Source of the DNA: Gammaproteobacteria bacterium
GTDB lineage: Bacteria; Pseudomonadota; Gammaproteobacteria; Pseudomonadales; UBA3067
Reading direction: 5' to 3'
Assembly (NCBI GenBank): GCA_002402085.1
Contig: NVVB01000063.1
Coordinates: 1 to 7,261 of the forward strand
DNA length: 7,261 bases
The notes beneath the pieces are model-generated. The model had not been told where the DNA came from. It did no database searches and saw only the letters and a list, made by a program, of their open reading frames with translations. The position numbers and the translations under genes were made by a program. Numbering within the stretch: position 1 is the first letter of the stretch; the number at the start of each line of letters is the position of its first letter. Shown piece after piece: positions 1 to 7,261 of the stretch.

Positions 1-68
1 ACAGAGGCCGCCACCTTGAACCGAATGGTTCAAGGACCCAATCAACAGCGGCATTTTGGGGAGCTTTA
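1..68 (+). ncRNA. ssrS: 6S RNA, 3' end (5' part outside the window)
   Basis: 6S RNA binds the sigma-70 RNA polymerase holoenzyme and mimics an open promoter, repressing many promoters in stationary phase. Only the 3' strand of the molecule is present. A perfect 9-bp hairpin, CCTTGAACC (14-22) with GGTTCAAGG (27-35), matches the 3'-side hairpin of enterobacterial 6S RNA (CACCTTGAACC...GGTTCAAGG). It is followed at the expected distance by GGCATTTTGGGGAG (50-63), which corresponds to the GGCATCTCGGAGA closing-stem strand in E. coli. The next gene is 5-formyltetrahydrofolate cyclo-ligase, the classical downstream neighbour of ssrS, which strongly supports the call. The mature 3' end near 68 is estimated by comparison with E. 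coli. The partner strand of the closing stem lies off the left edge. Confidence 0.88.
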
Positions 69-69
69 A

Positions 70-133
70 CCACACACCTGCAATCGCACACCCGCAACTA
101 GACACCCACTCAACAACCCCCCACCACCCGCCT
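70..133 (+). promoter_or_regulatory. C-rich, G-poor leader: candidate Rho-loading (rut) region between 6S RNA and the cyclo-ligase gene
   Basis: Directly after the 6S RNA end, bases 71-132 contain 34 C, 19 A, 5 G and 4 T, a marked C-over-G bubble with no obvious stem. Such unstructured C-rich RNA is the usual signature of Rho loading, and no hairpin plus U-tract terminator is seen after 6S RNA. Rho-dependent termination between ssrS and ygfA has been reported in E. coli, so the position fits. If real, it would help form the 6S 3' end and limit read-through into the cyclo-ligase gene. The assignment is inferred from composition and position only. Confidence 0.4.
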
Positions 134-249
134 TAAATTCAGCGCACGACTTCCCGCACCTTTCTAAGAAGAGTAATATTGTCAGGCCTTGAGCCCGACC
201 GATTGGCTCTCGCGGCTCGACAACACGCGCCTCAGCGCTAGCGCCATTC

Positions 250-861
250 ATGACTATAACGCACTGCTTTCTCGCCATGCCCACTATTAAAAAAATTCGC
301 ACCGCGATTCGTAAACAACGCCGAAGCCTCAGCCGAGCGCAACAACGATTTGCCTCCCAAGCGGCATGCAATCGCCTGACCAATCACCCTATCTTTATAA
401 GAAGTAAGCACATTGCTATTTATTGGCCGAATGACGGAGAGATCGATCCAACGCCCTTGCTAGAGAAAGCGTGGCGATTAGGCAAACACTGCTATTTACC
501 GGTATTGGCACCTTTAGATAAGAAGACACTGGGCTTTAGTCGATATAGGAAAAATCAAACACTTCGAAACAATCGCTACGGCATCCCTGAGCCCGCTACG
601 AGCCACTCAAGCCTATACCCGGCATGGGCGTTAGATATAGTCATCACACCACTGGTAGCCTTTGACCAAGAAGGCAATCGCATTGGAATGGGGGGAGGGT
701 ACTACGATCGGACGTTTCACTTTAGAGCCAAAAGCCCTACACGGAAACCTGCGTTAATTGGACTGGGGCATCACTTTCAGCAAATTGACTGCATTCCAGC
801 GCGAGCATGGGACGTGCCATTAACGCTAGCGGCGACGGACATGAGTCTAATTGAGTTCTAA
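250..861 (+). CDS. ygfA: 5-formyltetrahydrofolate cyclo-ligase (5,10-methenyltetrahydrofolate synthetase)
   Basis: This cytoplasmic enzyme uses ATP to convert 5-formyltetrahydrofolate to 5,10-methenyltetrahydrofolate, returning the stored folate to one-carbon metabolism. The 203-residue product shows the family's N-terminal basic helix (IRKQRRSLS, 20-28), a YWPNDGEIDPTPLL segment (58-71), LDIVITPLVAFD (128-139), the nucleotide-binding motif GNRIGMGGGYYDR (142-154), and the C-terminal Q-x-x-x-x-IPARAWDVPL region (178-191). It resembles E. coli YgfA over its whole length, and the 6S RNA upstream is the typical context. The start is uncertain. ATG 250 gives 203 residues; ATG 277 gives 194 (MPTIKKIRTAIRKQ), closer to the family's usual length. 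Neither has a clear Shine-Dalgarno sequence, and a 10-bp palindrome, GCGCTAGCGC (235-244), sits where one would lie for ATG 250. It was probably co-transcribed at least partly with 6S RNA. The gene ends 9 bases before the convergent small gene. Confidence 0.93.
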   Translation: MTITHCFLAMPTIKKIRTAIRKQRRSLSRAQQRFASQAACNRLTNHPIFIRSKHIAIYWPNDGEIDPTPLLEKAWRLGKHCYLPVLAPLDKKTLGFSRYRKNQTLRNNRYGIPEPATSHSSLYPAWALDIVITPLVAFDQEGNRIGMGGGYYDRTFHFRAKSPTRKPALIGLGHHFQQIDCIPARAWDVPLTLAATDMSLIEF

Positions 862-870
862 AGCACTCGA

Positions 871-996
871 CTATCGGATTACGTATTGCTTTGCCACACT
901 CTCGGGGGAAACATCACCCTGCGAGTAACTACTCACCAAAACGCCTAACCCAAAAATAACTGCAAGCACTAACATAATGTCGGGTTTCTTTTTCAT
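871..996 (-). CDS. Small single-pass membrane protein, 41 residues
   Basis: Reading the minus strand from ATG (996-994) to TAG (873-871) gives 41 residues. The protein begins MKKKPD, then has a hydrophobic stretch of about 18 residues (7-24, IMLVLAVIFGLGVLVSSY), and ends in a short polar tail (SQGDVSPESVAKQYVIR). A positive N-terminus before one hydrophobic helix predicts an inner-membrane protein with its N-terminus in the cytoplasm. A weak Shine-Dalgarno-like GAAAG lies close upstream of the ATG. It recalls short MKKKPD/MKKRP-type conserved hypothetical proteins of gammaproteobacteria, but that is from memory and no function is known. There is no lipobox, so a lipoprotein is unlikely. It runs convergently to the cyclo-ligase gene with only 9 bases between stop codons and no visible terminator hairpin, so the two transcripts may overlap. 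It is too short for default gene callers and could easily be missed. Confidence 0.68.
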   Translation of the reverse strand: MKKKPDIMLVLAVIFGLGVLVSSYSQGDVSPESVAKQYVIR

Positions 997-1433
997 ACTT
1001 TCAACTGAGCAAGATTATTGCCGAAGTAAATTAATAAAAATTGTTCAATGATCCTATCTACAACCATCAAGCGGTCATTCAAAAGCGAACTACTGGCGGC
1101 CTGATATTACCAAGATATCGTTAAACGCCCTTTCAATCCGGGAACTAGGTCCGATATCTGCAAGAAGCCTACCGAACCAGCATCGATAGCAAATAAACTG
1201 CACGGCCCAAAACCCTACGACGGATTTAGTGGTTGTTTTCAAAGTACGCGTTAATGGGTGTGTTAGGTGCCGAGCGCTGTATAAATTATTATTACTGGCA
1301 CGACTTACTTAGGACCATAACCAAATCGTCCAATTAAAGCCAGCTTTATAACTCCATAGACGAGGCAAATGGCATTCGCCAAGCAGTCTACTGGGCGCAG
1401 TGGTTAGAAATGAATGAAAAAAATTCGACCTGA
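997..1433. other. Gene-free stretch between two minus-strand units
   Basis: No reading frame here has a credible start, ribosome-binding site and length. The + strand offers only peptides of under about 20 codons, for example from ATG 1048. On the minus strand an open frame of about 75 codons crosses the middle of the stretch but contains no ATG, only an internal TTG, and its translation shows no family I recognise. The part next to the small membrane-protein gene (about 1021-1060) is AT-rich and presumably holds its promoter, but no well-spaced -35/-10 pair is convincing. The clearest structure is the imperfect inverted repeat listed separately. No tRNA, terminator with U-tract or insertion-sequence end was recognised. 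Confidence 0.6.
1121..1254. repeat. Long imperfect inverted repeat in the gene-free stretch
   Basis: The arm at 1121-1153 can pair with the arm at 1221-1254 around a 67-base centre. Counting by hand gives 22 Watson-Crick and 4 G-U pairs over 33 positions if read as + strand RNA, with a bulged A at 1125 and small internal loops. The innermost ten pairs are uninterrupted: ACTAGGTCCG (1144-1153) with CGGATTTAGT (1221-1230). Outside the 3' arm lies GTTAGGT (1262-1268), which fits the integron core consensus GTTRRRY, but no matching RYYYAAC lies at the other end. It may be a decayed palindromic element or a structured RNA; the sequence alone does not decide. Confidence 0.35.
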
Positions 1434-1754
1434 CTAGCCCAAACTAAATTCAACTGACTGATGCTCGGGAAAAATTACCGTATAACCGTCATCGTCATCG
1501 GCCTTATAAGCCGCTACCACAGCATTCAAGGACAAGCCCATATCAGCTTGAGTAAGTATGCTTTTACATGCCGCCAAGGCTTGCGCAGGTACATCGGTAC
1601 GAATCAAAAGATTCAGCTTCCCAGCCCCTAAGCAATGGCCGTCCATACCATGCGCATCCCCAAGCGCCAGCCCAAGCTCGAACTCAAGCTTAAGCAACTG
1701 ATCAAAGTCATCCATTAGCGCGCCGTCAAACTGAAGAACCAGCTGATATTTCAT
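1434..1754 (-). CDS. Conserved hypothetical protein, 106 residues, coupled to the VF530 gene
   Basis: The product is a small acidic, soluble-looking protein with no signal peptide or membrane helix. It starts [11 protein letters not shown], has an acidic helix ([19 protein letters not shown], 15-33), then [20 protein letters not shown] (37-56), a central helix, [18 protein letters not shown] (79-96) and ends VEFSLG. The pattern [10 protein letters not shown]-x-EL, DGH-x-x-GxG-x-x-N-x-x-IxT, VAAY and YTVIxP recalls a conserved hypothetical family in proteobacteria; I know no assigned function and propose none. Its ATG overlaps the VF530 stop codon in an ATGA (1754-1751), so it is very probably translated by coupling and made with the VF530 protein. 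No rho-independent terminator was found after its stop. Confidence 0.8.
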
Positions 1755-2005
1755 CGCGACCGCCTATGTTTCGCCCACGGATCAGGCCCAGCAAACGTGT
1801 CGAGGTATAAATCTTCAACTTTTTTTCGAGCCCAGGGGGTTTTGCGTAAAAACTTTAAGGACGACTTAACAGAAGGGTCACTCTTAAAACAATTGATTGG
1901 GACGTTTTCCGCCAACGTCGGCCAACCGAGATGCGCCTCTAGCCTTTTCACTACTTGCTCAAGGGTGACACCGTGTAATGGATTATTTACTTGCTCGCCG
2001 GTCAT
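1751..2005 (-). CDS. VF530 family (DUF2132) small DNA-binding-type protein
   Basis: The 84-residue product carries the whole DUF2132/VF530 signature: [13 protein letters not shown] (7-19), the LGW motif (26-28), [32 protein letters not shown] (37-68). The family is named after Vibrio fischeri VF530, a small helical protein classed as DNA-binding; its cellular role is not established. Beyond the usual end at DLYL this copy has a tail of about 16 residues ending in a basic stretch ([10 protein letters not shown]), which may add nucleic-acid contacts. ATG 2005 is the only reasonable start, because an in-frame TGA lies five codons upstream; the Shine-Dalgarno is weak. It is the first gene of a two-gene operon, overlapping the next by four bases, with a TATAAT box about 35 bases upstream of the ATG. 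Confidence 0.92.
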
Positions 2006-2039
2006 GAATGCAGCCCATCAATTTTCAATCGTGTGGTTC

Positions 2040-2068
2040 ATTATACAACGAATGCAAAACTGAAATAA
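2040..2068 (-). promoter_or_regulatory. Candidate sigma-70 promoter of the VF530 operon
   Basis: On the minus strand, a perfect TATAAT occupies 2045-2040. With a 17-base spacer the -35 position (2068-2063) reads TTATTT, a poor match to TTGACA, and no extended -10 TG is present. Transcription would start near 2033, giving a leader of about 28 bases before ATG 2005. The strong -10 and its position between the kinase stop and the VF530 start support it; the weak -35 suggests low basal activity or an activator. Confidence 0.45.
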
Positions 2069-2134
2069 AAGCCTGCGCACGACTATTGGGCGACTAAATC
2101 AGCGATAACCACCACTCGATGAGTGCGGCGTGAT

Positions 2135-5100
2135 TTAATTGCGCTTATTCTGACCACTTTGCAGACTCGATGCGGACTTATCGGGCAAGGCCGCGTATTT
2201 AAATAGACGCAACTTTAACAAAGACAACAACGCATCCGTATCCACTGGCTTGGACATATAATCTGACGCGCCACAATCCAAGCATTTTTGTCGATCCTCT
2301 GGCATGGCATTGGCCGTCACCGCAACAATGGGCAGCTCACTTAAGTAATTAATCTTTCTAATCTCTGTAATCGCCTCGTAGCCATCCATGACTGGCATCA
2401 TTATGTCCATGATGATTAGCTCAATGTCGTCATTTTCGGTAGCGACCAATTTATCCAAAGCGACCTGACCATTCTCCGCGATCACTACTTCCAAGCCTTC
2501 GCCCTCAAGAATCTTCGACATGCTAAATAGATTACGGACATCATCATCCACCAACAGCACCTTTCTATTTTCTAGCGCAATGCTGTCGCCACTGGCCAAC
2601 TCAATATCCGGGCTCTGACCATGCGGTACCGATTGATGCTGTACCGATTGATCCAGTGCCGCTTGATTCTGCATAGATGGCTCTTGCACAGATTGATTGT
2701 CTAGTGATTGAATTTGACTGCCTTGGACGTCGTGGCCACTTGATGGAGAATCCTGGCCTTGGATACCCAACGATGCGTTTGACGCCCTAGCGGCATCAGT
2801 CGTACTAGGCGTATCTTGCGAATGCGAGGCGGACTCCACCGAATTTAAAAACGTCATCACCGTGCCGAGCAGATTAGCAAAAGAGTCCTCTTTCTTAATC
2901 ACACTAATCGCATACTGCTCCAATTGCCGCTGTTCATTACGGTTAATCTCTCGCCCGGTATACACGACCACCGGCGGCGGAACCGGCATAGAAGAGCGAA
3001 GCCTTTCTAGCACTTCCAAGCCATCAATATCCGGCAAGCCCAAATCAAGAATCATGCAATGATAACACCCTGTCGATGCCGCTTTTATAGCGTTTTCCCC
3101 CGAGGACACACAGTCCACATCAAGACCCGACTCCTGTAGCATTATTCGCAAGGCGTTCTGCCCTACTAACTCATCTTCAACCACCAGTATTTTATTGATA
3201 TCACTTTGAGTAGCCCGACTAAAACTGCGTAATGCCTCAACTACTTCATCTTCTTTGGCGGGCTTTTGGATCACACCCACAGCACCCGATTGCAATAGCT
3301 CTATATTTACATCACGCGCAGTAATAATCTCAACCGGAATCCTTGCTGTTTTGGGGTTAGCTTTTAATTTCCCCAAAACCTCTAAGCCATCCATATCAGG
3401 CAAGCCCATGTCGAGGAGGATGCCGCTCGGTTCATGGGCCAGCGCAAGCTTCAAACCAGTCTCGCCATTACTTGCAGTATGGCAGCGAAACCCCGTTTCG
3501 CGCACGATGTCCATCAATACCTTGTTAAAGGCAGGATCATCTTCGATCACTAAGATGGCTTCGCCTCGACCAGCCTCCGCATCCTGGTTCGCCATATTAT
3601 TGCTATCCGAAGGAGACTCAGACAACGCGGGAAATAAAGAGTGTGACTGCGCTTGAGACTGATTACTAACCTGTGCATCGTCCTCGTCTAATACCAACGT
3701 CTCAGGCAGCAGCAAGGTGAACGTACTGCCTTTGCCTTCGGTACTGGTTAACTTAATTTCACCGCCCAAAAAACTCGCTAACTCACGGGAAATAGTCAGC
3801 CCCAATCCAGTACCGCCATACTGTCGACTGGTGGAGCCGTCGGCTTGTTGAAACGACTCGAATATCAAATTAATTTTCTCTTCTGGAATACCCACGCCTG
3901 AATCTTTAACCGAAAAACCAACAGTCGGAACCCCTTTCAGTGACTCGCGCAGATAATTAAATCCGTCCTTAGGTCGAAATGCCGTAACGATCACCTCGCC
4001 TCGCATCGTAAACTTAAAGGCATTGGACAGAAAGTTTTTAAGGATCTGGTGCAAACGCTGATTATCCGTGATCATTTTATCCAGCCCACTGGCGTCTTCA
4101 AAAATCAGCTTGACGTCTTTATCCCCAGCAATGGGCGCAAATTGCTGTTCCAAGCGTTGCAGAGTCTGGCCAATGCAGACCTCTTCCACATGCAAAGACA
4201 GCATGCCTGCCTCTACTTTTGACAAATCCAAAATATCGGTAATTATATTTAATAAATCTTTACCGCCTTCATTAATAATCCCCGCACACTCCACTTGAGA
4301 GACATCCAAATTACCCTTTTTATTATCCATTAAATGCTTTGACAAAATTAACAAGCTATTCAATGGCGTACGTAACTCATGGGACATATTGGCTAAAAAC
4401 TCAGACTTGTATTTACTCGAGCGTTTTAATTCTTCTGCATTGAGTTTTAAGTCAGCTTGAGAACTTGTTAATTCAGCGTTTTTTTGTTCGATTTGACTTT
4501 TTTGTAGGGACAACCTTTCCGCTTGTGCATGCAACTCAGTACTGGAAATATCTTCAAACTCTTTTGACTTACGAAGCTGCTCAATCATGTCATTGAAATC
4601 ATCGGCTAATTCGCCAATTTCATCACAGGAAGGGCTCTCGACAAATTCAGAGAAATCACCCCCAGCCACTTTCTCCGTAGCGAACGACAACCTTCGCACA
4701 GCGCCAACGATCGATCGCGACACAAATACGGCCGTGAGCATCGCAACGCCAATGGAGAGCAGCGTACCCAACAACGTAATTAAGGCGGTACTTTCTGCCG
4801 CACGCTCAGCTTTAAGTGTTCGCACGCCAATGAGCCTTCTTTCCTCATTAATAAAACCGTCTATTTTCGCTCTTAATTCATCCATGAGCTTTTTGCCAGT
4901 TTCATTCTCAATCAGTGCGGTGACATCATTCATGGTCGCGCCGGTTTCATTGAGGCTTCGACGCAAAGCGATTTCAGGCTCACCCGCCTCGGCAATCCAT
5001 TGCTCCGACTTCGCCGTCAACAGGGCAATTTGCTGCTTCATTTGAGCCGCATCATAGCCCAACCTTACCAATGCTTTGAGTTCTTCGAAATGTTTAGTTA

Positions 5101-7261
5101 AGGATTTTTTGCCTGATTCAAAGGGCTGTAAAAACTCATCGCGACCGGTAATTAAAAAACCACGCTGTCCCGTTTCTTGATCGACAATGTCGTAAGCGAT
5201 GGCCACCAAAAGCCTCTGCCCAGGCCGATTGGTGGCTTTAACAAACTTACGATTAATTTGCTCTAACTTAAAACGAATTCGATCCAGTACCCCTTTGCCT
5301 AAGCCCGCAGATATCACCTGCTCGATATCTGTGTACTTGGCTGTTTTGGCATTCACTTGTCTTCGAATACTTATTTCCGGATTGGCCGCGACCCTGAGCC
5401 ATTGCGCCGCCAAACCCTCCACAAGCTTTATTTCAGCTAACATCTCATCTACATCAAGTGCATCAGCAGCAATATTACGTAACTCAGCAAGTGACTGTAG
5501 CAACTCTTTTTGCCCGGCATGATAGGGCTCCAAAAAAGATTCGTCGCCGGTAATTAGGAAGCCTCGTTGACCCGTCTCTTGATCCACTAAATTCTTTGCC
5601 ACACGCAGTGATGCATTCACACCATGGAAATTTTGCGCGCGCGTAAAACTGCCACGAATGTCGTCCAAGAGCACCCGTATTTCATCCAGTATTGATTTAC
5701 CGGTAGCGCGCCGAACTACATTCTGAATTTGTGAAATAGTGTTGACGCTTCGCCCTTGCAACTTGTTACGCGCGAGTATTTGCGGAACTATCGATAGCTG
5801 ACGCCAACTATCCACCGCTTCACCCAGCCCATTAAGACCCGTGATCAATTGAATCCGACTGGCTTGGGGGGCATTGAGCACGCTCACCGACAGATCCATA
5901 TAACGCTTTTTATAGCGAACTAATTGCGTAGAATATTGTTTGATATAGGCCTGATCACCCGTAATAACAAAATTAGTGATTAGCGATTTCTGAGCCAAAA
6001 TGGCGTATTCAAGATCCGCAGCGATTAAAGCGGAATCTGATAAATCAAGCTGCCACAAGCCTTGTTGCAGCGCCGTCAATGATTTCAACAGCGTATCAAA
6101 CTGCTCCTCACCTTGCTGGCGACTTACAGTCGATTGCAATAAATCGAGGGGCGAACGTTCAGTCTCATTAATCTCTCTACGGGCTTTGATCTCTTTATCT
6201 GCGGCTTGGCTTTTCCATAAGCCCATATTAATGCGCAACTCTTCTAGATCCGCCATCACCGTCTCCTTACGGTAAATATTGGCAACCATGGCGCGCAAGG
6301 CCTGCACATGAATCTTAAAGTTTTTACCCCCACGATGAAACGGATCGAGAAACTCATCTCTACCGGTAATTAAATAACCCCGCTGACCTGTTTCTTGATC
6401 GACTATATCTTTTAGGATGGAAAGCACTAATATACGTGCTGATTCATTGCCCGCCTTTAAAAATATCTCCGAAAGATCATTTAAATACCGACGCGCCTCA
6501 TCAATGATTATTTTTCCTACGGAATTGGATAAGCGTGTTTCTAACGCACCATAAATCGATTTTTCTTGACTTTCCAACTCCGCCTCAGTCAAAATTCCTT
6601 GTCCTTGTCCTTGTCCTTGTCCTTGTCCTTGTCCTTGTCCTTGTCCTTGTCCTTGTCCTTGTCCTTGTCCTTGTCCTTGTCCTTGTCCTTGTCTACGTAA
6701 GTCTATTTCTATATTGGCTGCCTCCGTTAACCAACGTCGACTTAATATTTCCACTTGATCGATTATTTTATTCACTTCTTGCGCATCATACGCGTTCAAT
6801 ACAATGGAACGAAGCTCGTTCATATGCAGACGGAAATTTCTTTGCCCCGCATAATATGGCGCTAGAAATTGTTCATCTCCGGCAATTAGAAATCCTCGCT
6901 CACCGGTTTCCTGATCAACAATGTCTTTGGTTATCGCTAGAATTAGATTTTCCGCTTGTAACGCGTCCGCACGCCTAAACTTTTCAGTCAAACGACCGGT
7001 CAACACCCGTATATTATCAAGAATATCTTTGCCTGTTTTTTGACGCAGTACATTCTGAATGTAATCAAGGCGTATACTCTGCGGCTGGACTTTACGACGT
7101 TGGGCAATTTCTGGCTCAGCGGCTTGCAATATCCAAGCCTTTTCCAGCGTATCAATTTGATTGATTTTTTCAAGCTGCGCGGGGTTATCGTCAATCAACA
7201 ATTTAATATCCGCAATGGAATCATCCCACGCATTCTTAGCATCTACATAGGGCGCTAAAAA
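2135..7261 (-). CDS. Multi-CHASE3 hybrid sensor histidine kinase with three receiver domains (5' end outside the window)
   Basis: This membrane sensor kinase autophosphorylates a histidine and passes phosphate to aspartates of its own receivers. The frame is open to the right edge, so 1,708 C-terminal residues are visible (numbered from the first codon at 7261). In order: CHASE3-like modules 0-5 (about 1-768) with motif DIVDQETGQRGFLITG; one transmembrane helix (about 824-846); HAMP (847-900); coiled coil (901-950); HisKA with HELRTP, His961; HATPase_c (about 1064-1187) with N1076/N1080, DSGVG (1120-1124) and GGTGLGL (1149-1155); receivers REC1 (Asp1284, Lys1333), REC2 (Asp1406, Lys1456) and REC3 (Asp1619, Lys1671). 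All catalytic residues look intact. No HPt domain is visible, so a separate HPt protein or direct output is inferred. An N-terminal transmembrane helix is expected upstream. Module 3 has lost the DQETG core. The TTG at 7201 is not a credible start, because it lies inside a module. Signal and target are unknown. Confidence 0.93.
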   Translation of the reverse strand, partial: FLAPYVDAKNAWDDSIADIKLLIDDNPAQLEKINQIDTLEKAWILQAAEPEIAQRRKVQPQSIRLDYIQNVLRQKTGKDILDNIRVLTGRLTEKFRRADALQAENLILAITKDIVDQETGERGFLIAGDEQFLAPYYAGQRNFRLHMNELRSIVLNAYDAQEVNKIIDQVEILSRRWLTEAANIEIDLRRQGQGQGQGQGQGQGQGQGQGQGQGQGQGQGQGILTEAELESQEKSIYGALETRLSNSVGKIIIDEARRYLNDLSEIFLKAGNESARILVLSILKDIVDQETGQRGYLITGRDEFLDPFHRGGKNFKIHVQALRAMVANIYRKETVMADLEELRINMGLWKSQAADKEIKARREINETERSPLDLLQSTVSRQQGEEQFDTLLKSLTALQQGLWQLDLSDSALIAADLEYAILAQKSLITNFVITGDQAYIKQYSTQLVRYKKRYMDLSVSVLNAPQASRIQLITGLNGLGEAVDSWRQLSIVPQILARNKLQGRSVNTISQIQNVVRRATGKSILDEIRVLLDDIRGSFTRAQNFHGVNASLRVAKNLVDQETGQRGFLITGDESFLEPYHAGQKELLQSLAELRNIAADALDVDEMLAEIKLVEGLAAQWLRVAANPEISIRRQVNAKTAKYTDIEQVISAGLGKGVLDRIRFKLEQINRKFVKATNRPGQRLLVAIAYDIVDQETGQRGFLITGRDEFLQPFESGKKSLTKHFEELKALVRLGYDAAQMKQQIALLTAKSEQWIAEAGEPEIALRRSLNETGATMNDVTALIENETGKKLMDELRAKIDGFINEERRLIGVRTLKAERAAESTALITLLGTLLSIGVAMLTAVFVSRSIVGAVRRLSFATEKVAGGDFSEFVESPSCDEIGELADDFNDMIEQLRKSKEFEDISSTELHAQAERLSLQKSQIEQKNAELTSSQADLKLNAEELKRSSKYKSEFLANMSHELRTPLNSLLILSKHLMDNKKGNLDVSQVECAGIINEGGKDLLNIITDILDLSKVEAGMLSLHVEEVCIGQTLQRLEQQFAPIAGDKDVKLIFEDASGLDKMITDNQRLHQILKNFLSNAFKFTMRGEVIVTAFRPKDGFNYLRESLKGVPTVGFSVKDSGVGIPEEKINLIFESFQQADGSTSRQYGGTGLGLTISRELASFLGGEIKLTSTEGKGSTFTLLLPETLVLDEDDAQVSNQSQAQSHSLFPALSESPSDSNNMANQDAEAGRGEAILVIEDDPAFNKVLMDIVRETGFRCHTASNGETGLKLALAHEPSGILLDMGLPDMDGLEVLGKLKANPKTARIPVEIITARDVNIELLQSGAVGVIQKPAKEDEVVEALRSFSRATQSDINKILVVEDELVGQNALRIMLQESGLDVDCVSSGENAIKAASTGCYHCMILDLGLPDIDGLEVLERLRSSMPVPPPVVVYTGREINRNEQRQLEQYAISVIKKEDSFANLLGTVMTFLNSVESASHSQDTPSTTDAARASNASLGIQGQDSPSSGHDVQGSQIQSLDNQSVQEPSMQNQAALDQSVQHQSVPHGQSPDIELASGDSIALENRKVLLVDDDVRNLFSMSKILEGEGLEVVIAENGQVALDKLVATENDDIELIIMDIMMPVMDGYEAITEIRKINYLSELPIVAVTANAMPEDRQKCLDCGASDYMSKPVDTDALLSLLKLRLFKYAALPDKSASSLQSGQNKRN
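2624..2698 (-). repeat. Degenerate 15-base repeat encoding a Gln/Ser pentapeptide linker
   Basis: Between REC2 and REC3 the kinase has a low-complexity linker of about 90 residues rich in Gln, Ser and Asp. Within it five five-residue units follow each other (1522-1546): NQSVQ, EPSMQ, NQAAL, DQSVQ, HQSVP. At DNA level the two C-terminal units share an exact 12-base word, GTACCGATTGAT (2626-2637 and 2641-2652 on the + strand), 15 bases apart. The rest has diverged, so this repeat looks older than the Gln-Gly run. It probably acts as a flexible tether for the last receiver. Confidence 0.7.
4958..7261 (-). repeat. Tandem array of at least six CHASE3-like modules within the kinase gene
   Basis: Successive copies of the same roughly 135-residue unit are seen, each running GK-x-x-LD-x-IR ... 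DIVDQETGQRGFLITG-x-x-x-FL-x-PF/Y ... PEI-x-x-RR. Approximate spans are: module 0, 7094-7261 (partial); module 1, 6692-7033; module 2, 6176-6517; module 3, 5762-6112 (divergent, QKSLITNFVITG); module 4, 5360-5701; module 5, 4958-5299. Spacing between the ITG motifs is 134-140 residues once the Gln-Gly insertion is set aside. CHASE3 is an extracytoplasmic helical sensor domain normally present once, between two transmembrane helices; only after module 5 does a membrane helix appear. DNA similarity is highest around the motif: 42 of 48 bases agree between 5144-5191 and 6362-6409. More copies may lie off the right edge. Confidence 0.88.
6597..6692 (-). repeat. Perfect hexanucleotide tandem repeat (16 copies) encoding (Gln-Gly)16
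   Basis: Sixteen uninterrupted copies of CCTTGT (+ strand), 96 bases, lie inside the kinase gene. In the coding frame they give CAA GGA repeated, that is residues 191-222 as (QG)16, placed directly after the conserved EI-x-x-RR end of module 1 and before the first helix of module 2. Every copy is identical, with no synonymous drift, which points to recent expansion or ongoing slippage. Since the unit is six bases, gain or loss of copies changes only linker length by two residues and never the frame. Other modules have ordinary short linkers at this place. Confidence 0.97.

Follow-up and report, generated by a model that had tools for sequence, protein, structure and literature searches.

How does a perfect microsatellite come to lie, in frame, within the sensor region of a bacterial kinase, and what might its length do there? 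The question is raised by a 7,261-nucleotide stretch of contig NVVB01000063.1 (assembly GCA_002402085.1, positions 1 to 7,261), from a gammaproteobacterium of the Pseudomonadales lineage UBA3067 and hereafter called the window, in which the gene for a predicted hybrid histidine kinase carries sixteen copies of CAAGGA between the second and third of six CHASE3 modules. Among relatives of this gene, slippage and changes in spacer length are well supported. Our preferred reading, which we hold with confidence slightly better than even, is that the in-frame microsatellite changes length by slippage in two-residue steps and would retune the coupling of modules 1 and 2 to the other four modules and the kinase. 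The features of the gene on which the argument depends are given below, with module boundaries taken from a CHASE3 profile that we built from relatives.

2135..7261, minus strand: hybrid histidine kinase gene with the tract, its 5' part lying beyond the window (open reading frame and domain matches)
7064..7261, minus strand: CHASE3 module 1, portion within the window (own CHASE3 profile)
6692..7042, minus strand: CHASE3 module 2, reaching the Arg-Arg that precedes the tract (own CHASE3 profile)
6596..6691, minus strand: (CAAGGA)16 tract encoding (Gln-Gly)16 at the CHASE3 2/3 junction; 96 bp, in frame, 16 of 16 copies identical
6575..6577, minus strand: TTG taken as the start of database protein P0001, a short way downstream of the tract and probably an artefact of gene calling
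6143..6526, minus strand: CHASE3 module 3 (own CHASE3 profile)
5732..6121, minus strand: CHASE3 module 4 (own CHASE3 profile), whose helix 3-4 loop is a second repeat hot spot, in relatives only
5327..5710, minus strand: CHASE3 module 5 (own CHASE3 profile)
4925..5308, minus strand: CHASE3 module 6 (own CHASE3 profile)
4571..4726, minus strand: HAMP domain (domain match)
4205..4408, minus strand: HisKA phospho-acceptor domain (domain match)
3698..4066, minus strand: HATPase_c domain (domain match)
2216..2560, minus strand: receiver (REC) domain, the top-scoring of three stretches (domain match)

An earlier note on this DNA had described a perfect, in-frame, 16-copy hexanucleotide, and that description stands with its coordinates of 6597-6692 shifted by one base to 6596-6691. 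Tandem Repeats Finder delimits the repeat at 6596-6693, with 16.3 copies and 100% matches, and the longest period-6 run in the window reaches 98 bases where 200 mononucleotide shuffles reach 17 at most. Codon preference does not account for the sixteen GGA codons among the tract's sixteen glycines, because outside the tract GGA, at 6 of 104 positions, is the rarest glycine codon in that portion of the gene which lies in the window. Nowhere else in its own genome do four or more consecutive copies of CAAGGA occur, and among the 17 perfect repeats of at least 24 bp listed from a 324-kb sample of that genome, the tract ranks first in length (98 bp, with a runner-up of 58 bp).

The open reading frame that carries the tract ends at 2135 and, on the contig, continues without a stop as far as 7576, a length of 1813 codons; translation likely begins at an ATG within 7556-7564. 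In the predicted hybrid histidine kinase that it encodes, HAMP, HisKA, HATPase_c and three receiver stretches were all found, and Pfam family PF05227 (CHASE3) matches six stretches with 341 bits (cut-off 28), our own profile also recognizing six modules. The six-module array is presumably periplasmic, as hydrophobic stretches flank it on both sides. Our profile puts the tract between modules 2 and 3, in agreement with the earlier claim that it lies at a junction of two CHASE3 modules, and the ordinary linkers claimed for the remaining junctions of the same protein are indeed 6-7 residues each: from module 1 to module 6 the linkers measure 7, 44, 7, 7 and 6 residues. Most of the 44-residue linker is tract, and the profile's module 2 additionally runs about 11 residues into it. 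The same protein also contains an imperfect 15-bp repeat (2621-2671, minus strand; 3.4 copies, 80%) in a Gln/Ser-rich linker before the last receiver domain.

The origin of the tract is best approached through the sister species. The genus search returned only one other genome of the genus (G001), and its orthologue, 62% identical at the amino acid level, encodes QG at the same junction as twelve copies of CAAGGG followed by CAAGAA, against 16 copies in the window. Between the two species the QG peptide is kept, the synonymous unit is swapped throughout and the copy number is changed. Repeated copying of units would explain this pattern, which point mutation and codon selection would not easily produce, and the homogenization of each species' tract to its own unit leads us to infer that slippage, or recombination between units, generated it. 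The earlier note had ascribed the identical copies to repeat copying rather than to selection on the protein, and the sister's retention of the peptide with a wholly replaced synonymous unit bears this out. The G001 contig and a contig of Moraxellaceae bacterium NORP120 are identical at 8,832 of 8,832 compared bases.

Comparison of orthologues at the junction, which the earlier note had proposed, revealed something that it had missed: repeats recur there in relatives, in many units, as a family-wide hot spot. We compared 22 genes, comprising the window, loci with five or six modules and two genes whose halves lie on separate contigs (L048 with L080 and L055 with L051, paired by record names and position); loci with fewer modules or fragments (e.g. 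L052, L054, L072) fell outside this set, and duplicate loci of the same genomes were left uncounted. Perfect tandem repeats of at least 18 bp occur at junction 2/3 in 12 of the 22 genes and are built from nine different units, each 6 or 9 bp long, namely CAAGGA and CAAGGG for QG (one gene each), GCCGAA (three genes), GCAGAG (two) and GCTGAG (one) for AE, ACTGGC for TG, AAAGACTTA for KDL, GCTGGTGAT for AGD and GAAGGTGTA for EGV. Since relatives carry different units and copy numbers at that junction, it likely varies by DNA slippage. Our literature search, which covered open-licence papers mostly by listing, recognized no mention of repeats in CHASE3 arrays.

The concentration of repeats at this joint is pronounced. 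Across 24 open reading frame pieces (103,479 nt) we found 15 repeats of at least 24 bp, 12 of which lie in the 2,271 nt of junction 2/3 and represent 11 genes, one gene being split over two contigs and hence counted twice; the remaining three lie elsewhere in the array. At a threshold of 18 bp there are 13 repeats at junction 2/3 and four elsewhere in the same genes. A naive binomial for the enrichment at 24 bp gives 5e-18, a value that serves only as a rough guide, given the relatedness of the genes and the extra junction length that the repeats contribute. In the flanking DNA of the loci (133,278 nt) there are four repeats with periods of 13-15; the fifth one listed belongs to the repeat of a split gene, at its broken end. 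The same joint stands out at the protein level: of the 36 database proteins that have six modules exactly, 11 have more than 10 residues at junction 2/3, and none does at junction 1/2 or 5/6. In a search for runs of at least 8 residues and at least four copies in the 212 of 216 fetched proteins with one or more modules, 20 runs were listed, ten at junction 2/3, seven within or close to the module 4 loop (including two from proteins in which module 4 went unrecognized) and three elsewhere, two of them beyond the array. Protein P0046 carries a TD run outside the array, and the C-terminal half of the split gene L048/L080 has an extra (GATACT) repeat further along the array.

Repeats of this kind also raise the concern that the copy count, or the whole tract, was created by the assembler. 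The own genome is fragmented into 139 contigs, the count of 16 is the count as assembled, and assemblies do fail at sites of this kind: the gene of isolate DC_out160 is divided between two contigs inside its (GCTGGTGAT) repeat. The break between L048 and L080 falls within a 9-bp repeat. Against this, assemblies of different species show differing units at the same junction and a chimera would not yield in-frame units everywhere, which makes an artefact highly improbable.

Three pairs of relatives differ by whole units. Loci L037 and L055, from one genus and with proteins 94-96% identical, agree at 615 of 624 aligned bases and their sole internal gap is one unit; for L043 and L053, both from Colwellia, 288 of 322 bases are identical and the sole internal gap, in the module 4 loop, is three units. 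At the protein level, P0040 and P0041 share 785 of 894 residues with a sole internal gap of six residues, equal to three NT units. Other differences separate P0018 from P0029 (two residues, with different repeated letters), P0028 from P0031 (one N) and L036 from P0016 (two residues), and the repeat-free pair P0020 and P0021 shows no difference. The earlier expectation that copy number varies while flanks are conserved is thus confirmed among relatives, in the first three of these pairs and in the 16 copies of the window against the sister's 12.

Our AlphaFold2 model of the window protein, made with 41 sequences, contains six four-helix bundles, mostly with predicted local distance difference test (pLDDT) values above 85. 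The QG tract (fragment residues 191-222) is modelled as coil, with pLDDT values of 58, 44 and 47 in ten-residue blocks, between a helix that ends at 192 and another that begins at 226; other junction loops are likewise of low confidence but short, with residues 58-63 and 502-506 below 50. At the same site in L034 the (EA)n tract (fragment residues 216-237) is modelled as mostly helical, with block pLDDT values of 82, 62 and 71: helix 182-222 ends in it and helix 227-246 starts in it, a break of four residues separating the two. The QG stretch is accordingly predicted to be a disordered tether and (EA)n at the same site to be mostly helical. As the joint is floppy in one model and mostly helical in the other, the recurring trait is variable repeat length rather than one mechanical property. 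The earlier idea that spacer length may set the geometry or reach of the sensor survives in part: spacer length does change among relatives, and as the spacer is not always predicted to be floppy, reach need not be the sole consequence. No Protein Data Bank match with E of 0.001 or below was returned by Foldseek, and among the matches listed in a profile search of solved structures (60 of 422) only the part after the CHASE3 array was covered, from about profile position 912.

A disordered QG tract, kept as QG in both species of the genus, could also mean that a long hydrophilic linker is itself what selection maintains, with changes in its length incidental. We consider such a tether of fixed length unlikely, since relatives have a linker predicted to be mostly helical or an ordinary one of 6-8 residues, and since, among the aligned close pairs that bear repeats, only the P0016/P0152/P0153 set holds its length.

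In the reading that we prefer, slippage or recombination between units would add or delete two residues (three for the nine-base units) with the frame kept. The change would fall between the two modules adjacent to the first membrane helix and the following four, through which the array connects to the second helix, HAMP and the kinase, and the altered spacing or strain at junction 2/3 could shift the coupling or set-point in small steps. The tract would then act as a graded, always in-frame length switch resembling that of TolA, rather than as an on/off phase switch.

Several observations weigh against this reading. Ten of the 22 genes lack a perfect 18-bp repeat at junction 2/3, which is also not the sole variable joint, as junction 3/4 exceeds 10 residues in 7 of the 36 six-module proteins and junction 4/5 in 2 of 36. 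The AE runs of P0016, P0152 and P0153 are equally long in alignment, and all of the length differences are seen between relatives, the own species being represented by one genome. Neutral tolerance at a permissive joint is a serious rival that explains nearly all of the same data: an exposed 2/3 joint might take extra hydrophilic residues harmlessly, so that slippage products pile up and signalling is unaffected. The varied chemistry of the repeats (QG, TG, AGD, KDL, AE) speaks for it, and linkers of opposite chemistry (QG and EA), ranging from coil to mostly helix, fit tolerance just as well as they fit tuning. The own genome, moreover, seems prone to short tandem repeats: it has many besides the tract, and some of them lie in frame within other open reading frames. 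The sampled sequence (L135-L154) contains numerous perfect tandem repeats, their units 6 to 15 bp long, both between genes and within open reading frames, and of 14 merged repeat places 8 lie in open reading frames of at least 90 amino acids under a mechanical rule, some of them in frame. With so many such repeats, several of them in frame, slippage at the tract may need no special function. Two patterns sit less easily with tolerance, although both are still compatible with it: QG is kept across two species at 62% identity despite replacement of the DNA unit, and the hot spot recurs in distant lineages, with a second clade having its own hot spot in another loop. We regard neutral accumulation as a considerable possibility, short of probable.

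The distribution of the two hot spots was examined on a quick maximum-likelihood tree of 49 rows, with Shimodaira-Hasegawa-like approximate likelihood ratio test (SH-aLRT) support only and a midpoint split. Nine database proteins that match loci were left out, together with five-module and fragment proteins (such as P0028, P0031, P0034 and P0124); repeat labels were assigned by us, and short AE runs (e.g. P0010, P0012) were scored as no repeat. Of the 14 rows labelled as having a 2/3 repeat, 13 fall on one side of the split, which comprises 23 rows. The 26 rows on the other side have mostly ordinary 2/3 linkers and include seven of the eight labelled with a repeat in the module 4 loop, all seven being SN, NS, NT or AN. 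The eighth such row, L044 (QG), lies on the first side, and its label is an assignment by position, because its module 4 went unrecognized and the repeat occupies the gap where that module is expected. Presence or absence of the 2/3 repeat requires at least eight changes on the tree, in which L044 and L050 sit on long branches and are placed unsurely. A bolder reading, which we offer only tentatively and consider rather doubtful, is that two sister clades would each retain a slippage-prone microsatellite at a fixed site, the 2/3 junction in one and the module 4 helix 3-4 loop in the other, with units turning over and hypermutability kept, as a heritable tuning knob that would give cells graded sensor settings.

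The way in which these genes are annotated bears on one further explanation. CAAGGA includes AAGGA, so that the tract could form a row of Shine-Dalgarno-like sites for internal initiation of a shorter protein, and database proteins P0001, P0002 and P0039 each start right after the junction. The motif is absent from GCCGAA, GCAGAG, ACTGGC and AAAGACTTA at the same site, the short product would miss the first membrane helix and two modules, and the frame upstream is open in both species; such an RNA-level element is the least credible of the explanations considered here. P0001 (1480 amino acids) matches at 100% identity, and P0002 is 99.8% identical to the sister's translation over 1,002 residues. 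Among the 31 matches to a query of 305 amino acids around the tract, there was no upstream fragment called as a gene of its own (the top match 40% identical, none above 47%). For this reason a broken frame is not indicated in the assemblies behind P0001 and P0002; we rejected a frameshift reading of these short proteins and consider a gene-calling artefact likelier. The short database models probably miss the membrane helix and two modules.

Set beside known systems, the tract combines familiar elements in an unfamiliar place. Known repeat-driven switching in bacteria is mostly on/off, and simple-sequence contingency loci, such as the tracts of Campylobacter and Neisseria, produce on/off phase variation. 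The kinase tract resembles these in having perfect short tandem units in a coding region, where slippage is expected. It differs from them in that units of six or nine bases keep the frame and change length only; the six-base unit lies in frame inside an open reading frame, and a unit change neither shifts the frame nor alters a promoter, in keeping with the earlier statement that it cannot act as an on/off switch. The closer parallel, and the nearest experimentally tested one that we found, is TolA of E. coli, for which in-frame copies from 2 to 39 are reported to have given copy-number-dependent phenotypes with altered stress tolerance, rearrangement occurring at a frequency of 6.9x10^-5 and contraction being RecA-dependent (PMC3477136). 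Both are in-frame repeats in a linking domain of a cell-envelope protein with a unit count that varies, for the kinase among relatives, without loss of frame (PMC3477136), and the kinase tract and its counterparts in relatives are likewise perfect repeats within the reading frame with a unit that is a multiple of three. TolA, as described there, has 15-bp units and is not a kinase (PMC3477136), and in the kinase the unit itself is replaced between species, a system known here from sequence alone. The modules match Pfam CHASE3 and are predicted tandem bundles, as in CHASE3 and four-helix bundle sensors including the tandem four-helix bundles of GlnX (PMC9769921); the difference is that six successive modules precede HAMP and the kinase here, with a microsatellite linker after the second.

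These features give the locus an interest that does not hinge on a single outcome, as a repeat unable to disrupt the reading frame is housed in a signal receptor, and several lineages have rebuilt it from different DNA units at the same joint. Should length matter, a clone could spread its bets over sensor settings, and the relatives would provide a natural length series for studying the coupling of tandem sensor modules to a kinase. Should length prove neutral, the repeats still map where a sensor array tolerates variable spacing. They also caution that database entries for such genes are in some cases truncated or split at the repeat.

Across the genomes searched, the array gene is uncommon. 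At E 1e-70, strong matches occur in 9 of 390 genomes of the order; the gene is present in 4 of 5 genomes of one genus, in 4 of 39 Colwellia genomes (one match covering only 151 residues) and in 2 of 18 genomes of the genus around the Cycloclasticus locus, and in a class-wide search (E 1e-80) its own genome was alone among 369. Upstream on the contig, beyond the window, are genes for proteins of 147 and 415 amino acids (L030 2714-4407), which among 77 loci are common only with the sister and have no Pfam match, and for these reasons the upstream neighbours gave no hint of a ligand. By eye the 415-amino-acid protein is outer-membrane-like and the 147-amino-acid protein is secreted-looking; the latter presumably resembles small PstS-like proteins. 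Further along the contig is a large open reading frame that by eye resembles a non-ribosomal peptide synthetase.

The remaining observations concern the DNA itself. The QG units GGGCAA (L010 1859-1930), GGACAA (window 6596-6691) and GGGGCA (L044) place runs of G at even intervals on the coding strand, an arrangement that we assume could allow G-quadruplex formation and might favour slippage. Within the window, a VF530 DNA-binding protein gene (1751-2005, minus strand) adjoins a 106-amino-acid open reading frame (1434-1754, minus strand) without a Pfam match. No Rfam match within the window reaches its gathering score; positions 1-66 (plus strand) match the 3' part of 6S RNA, cut by the window edge, with 26.9 bits against a gathering score of 46.4. 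A 5-formyltetrahydrofolate cyclo-ligase gene lies just downstream of this part (250-861, plus strand), and 6S RNA beside that gene is the usual pairing.

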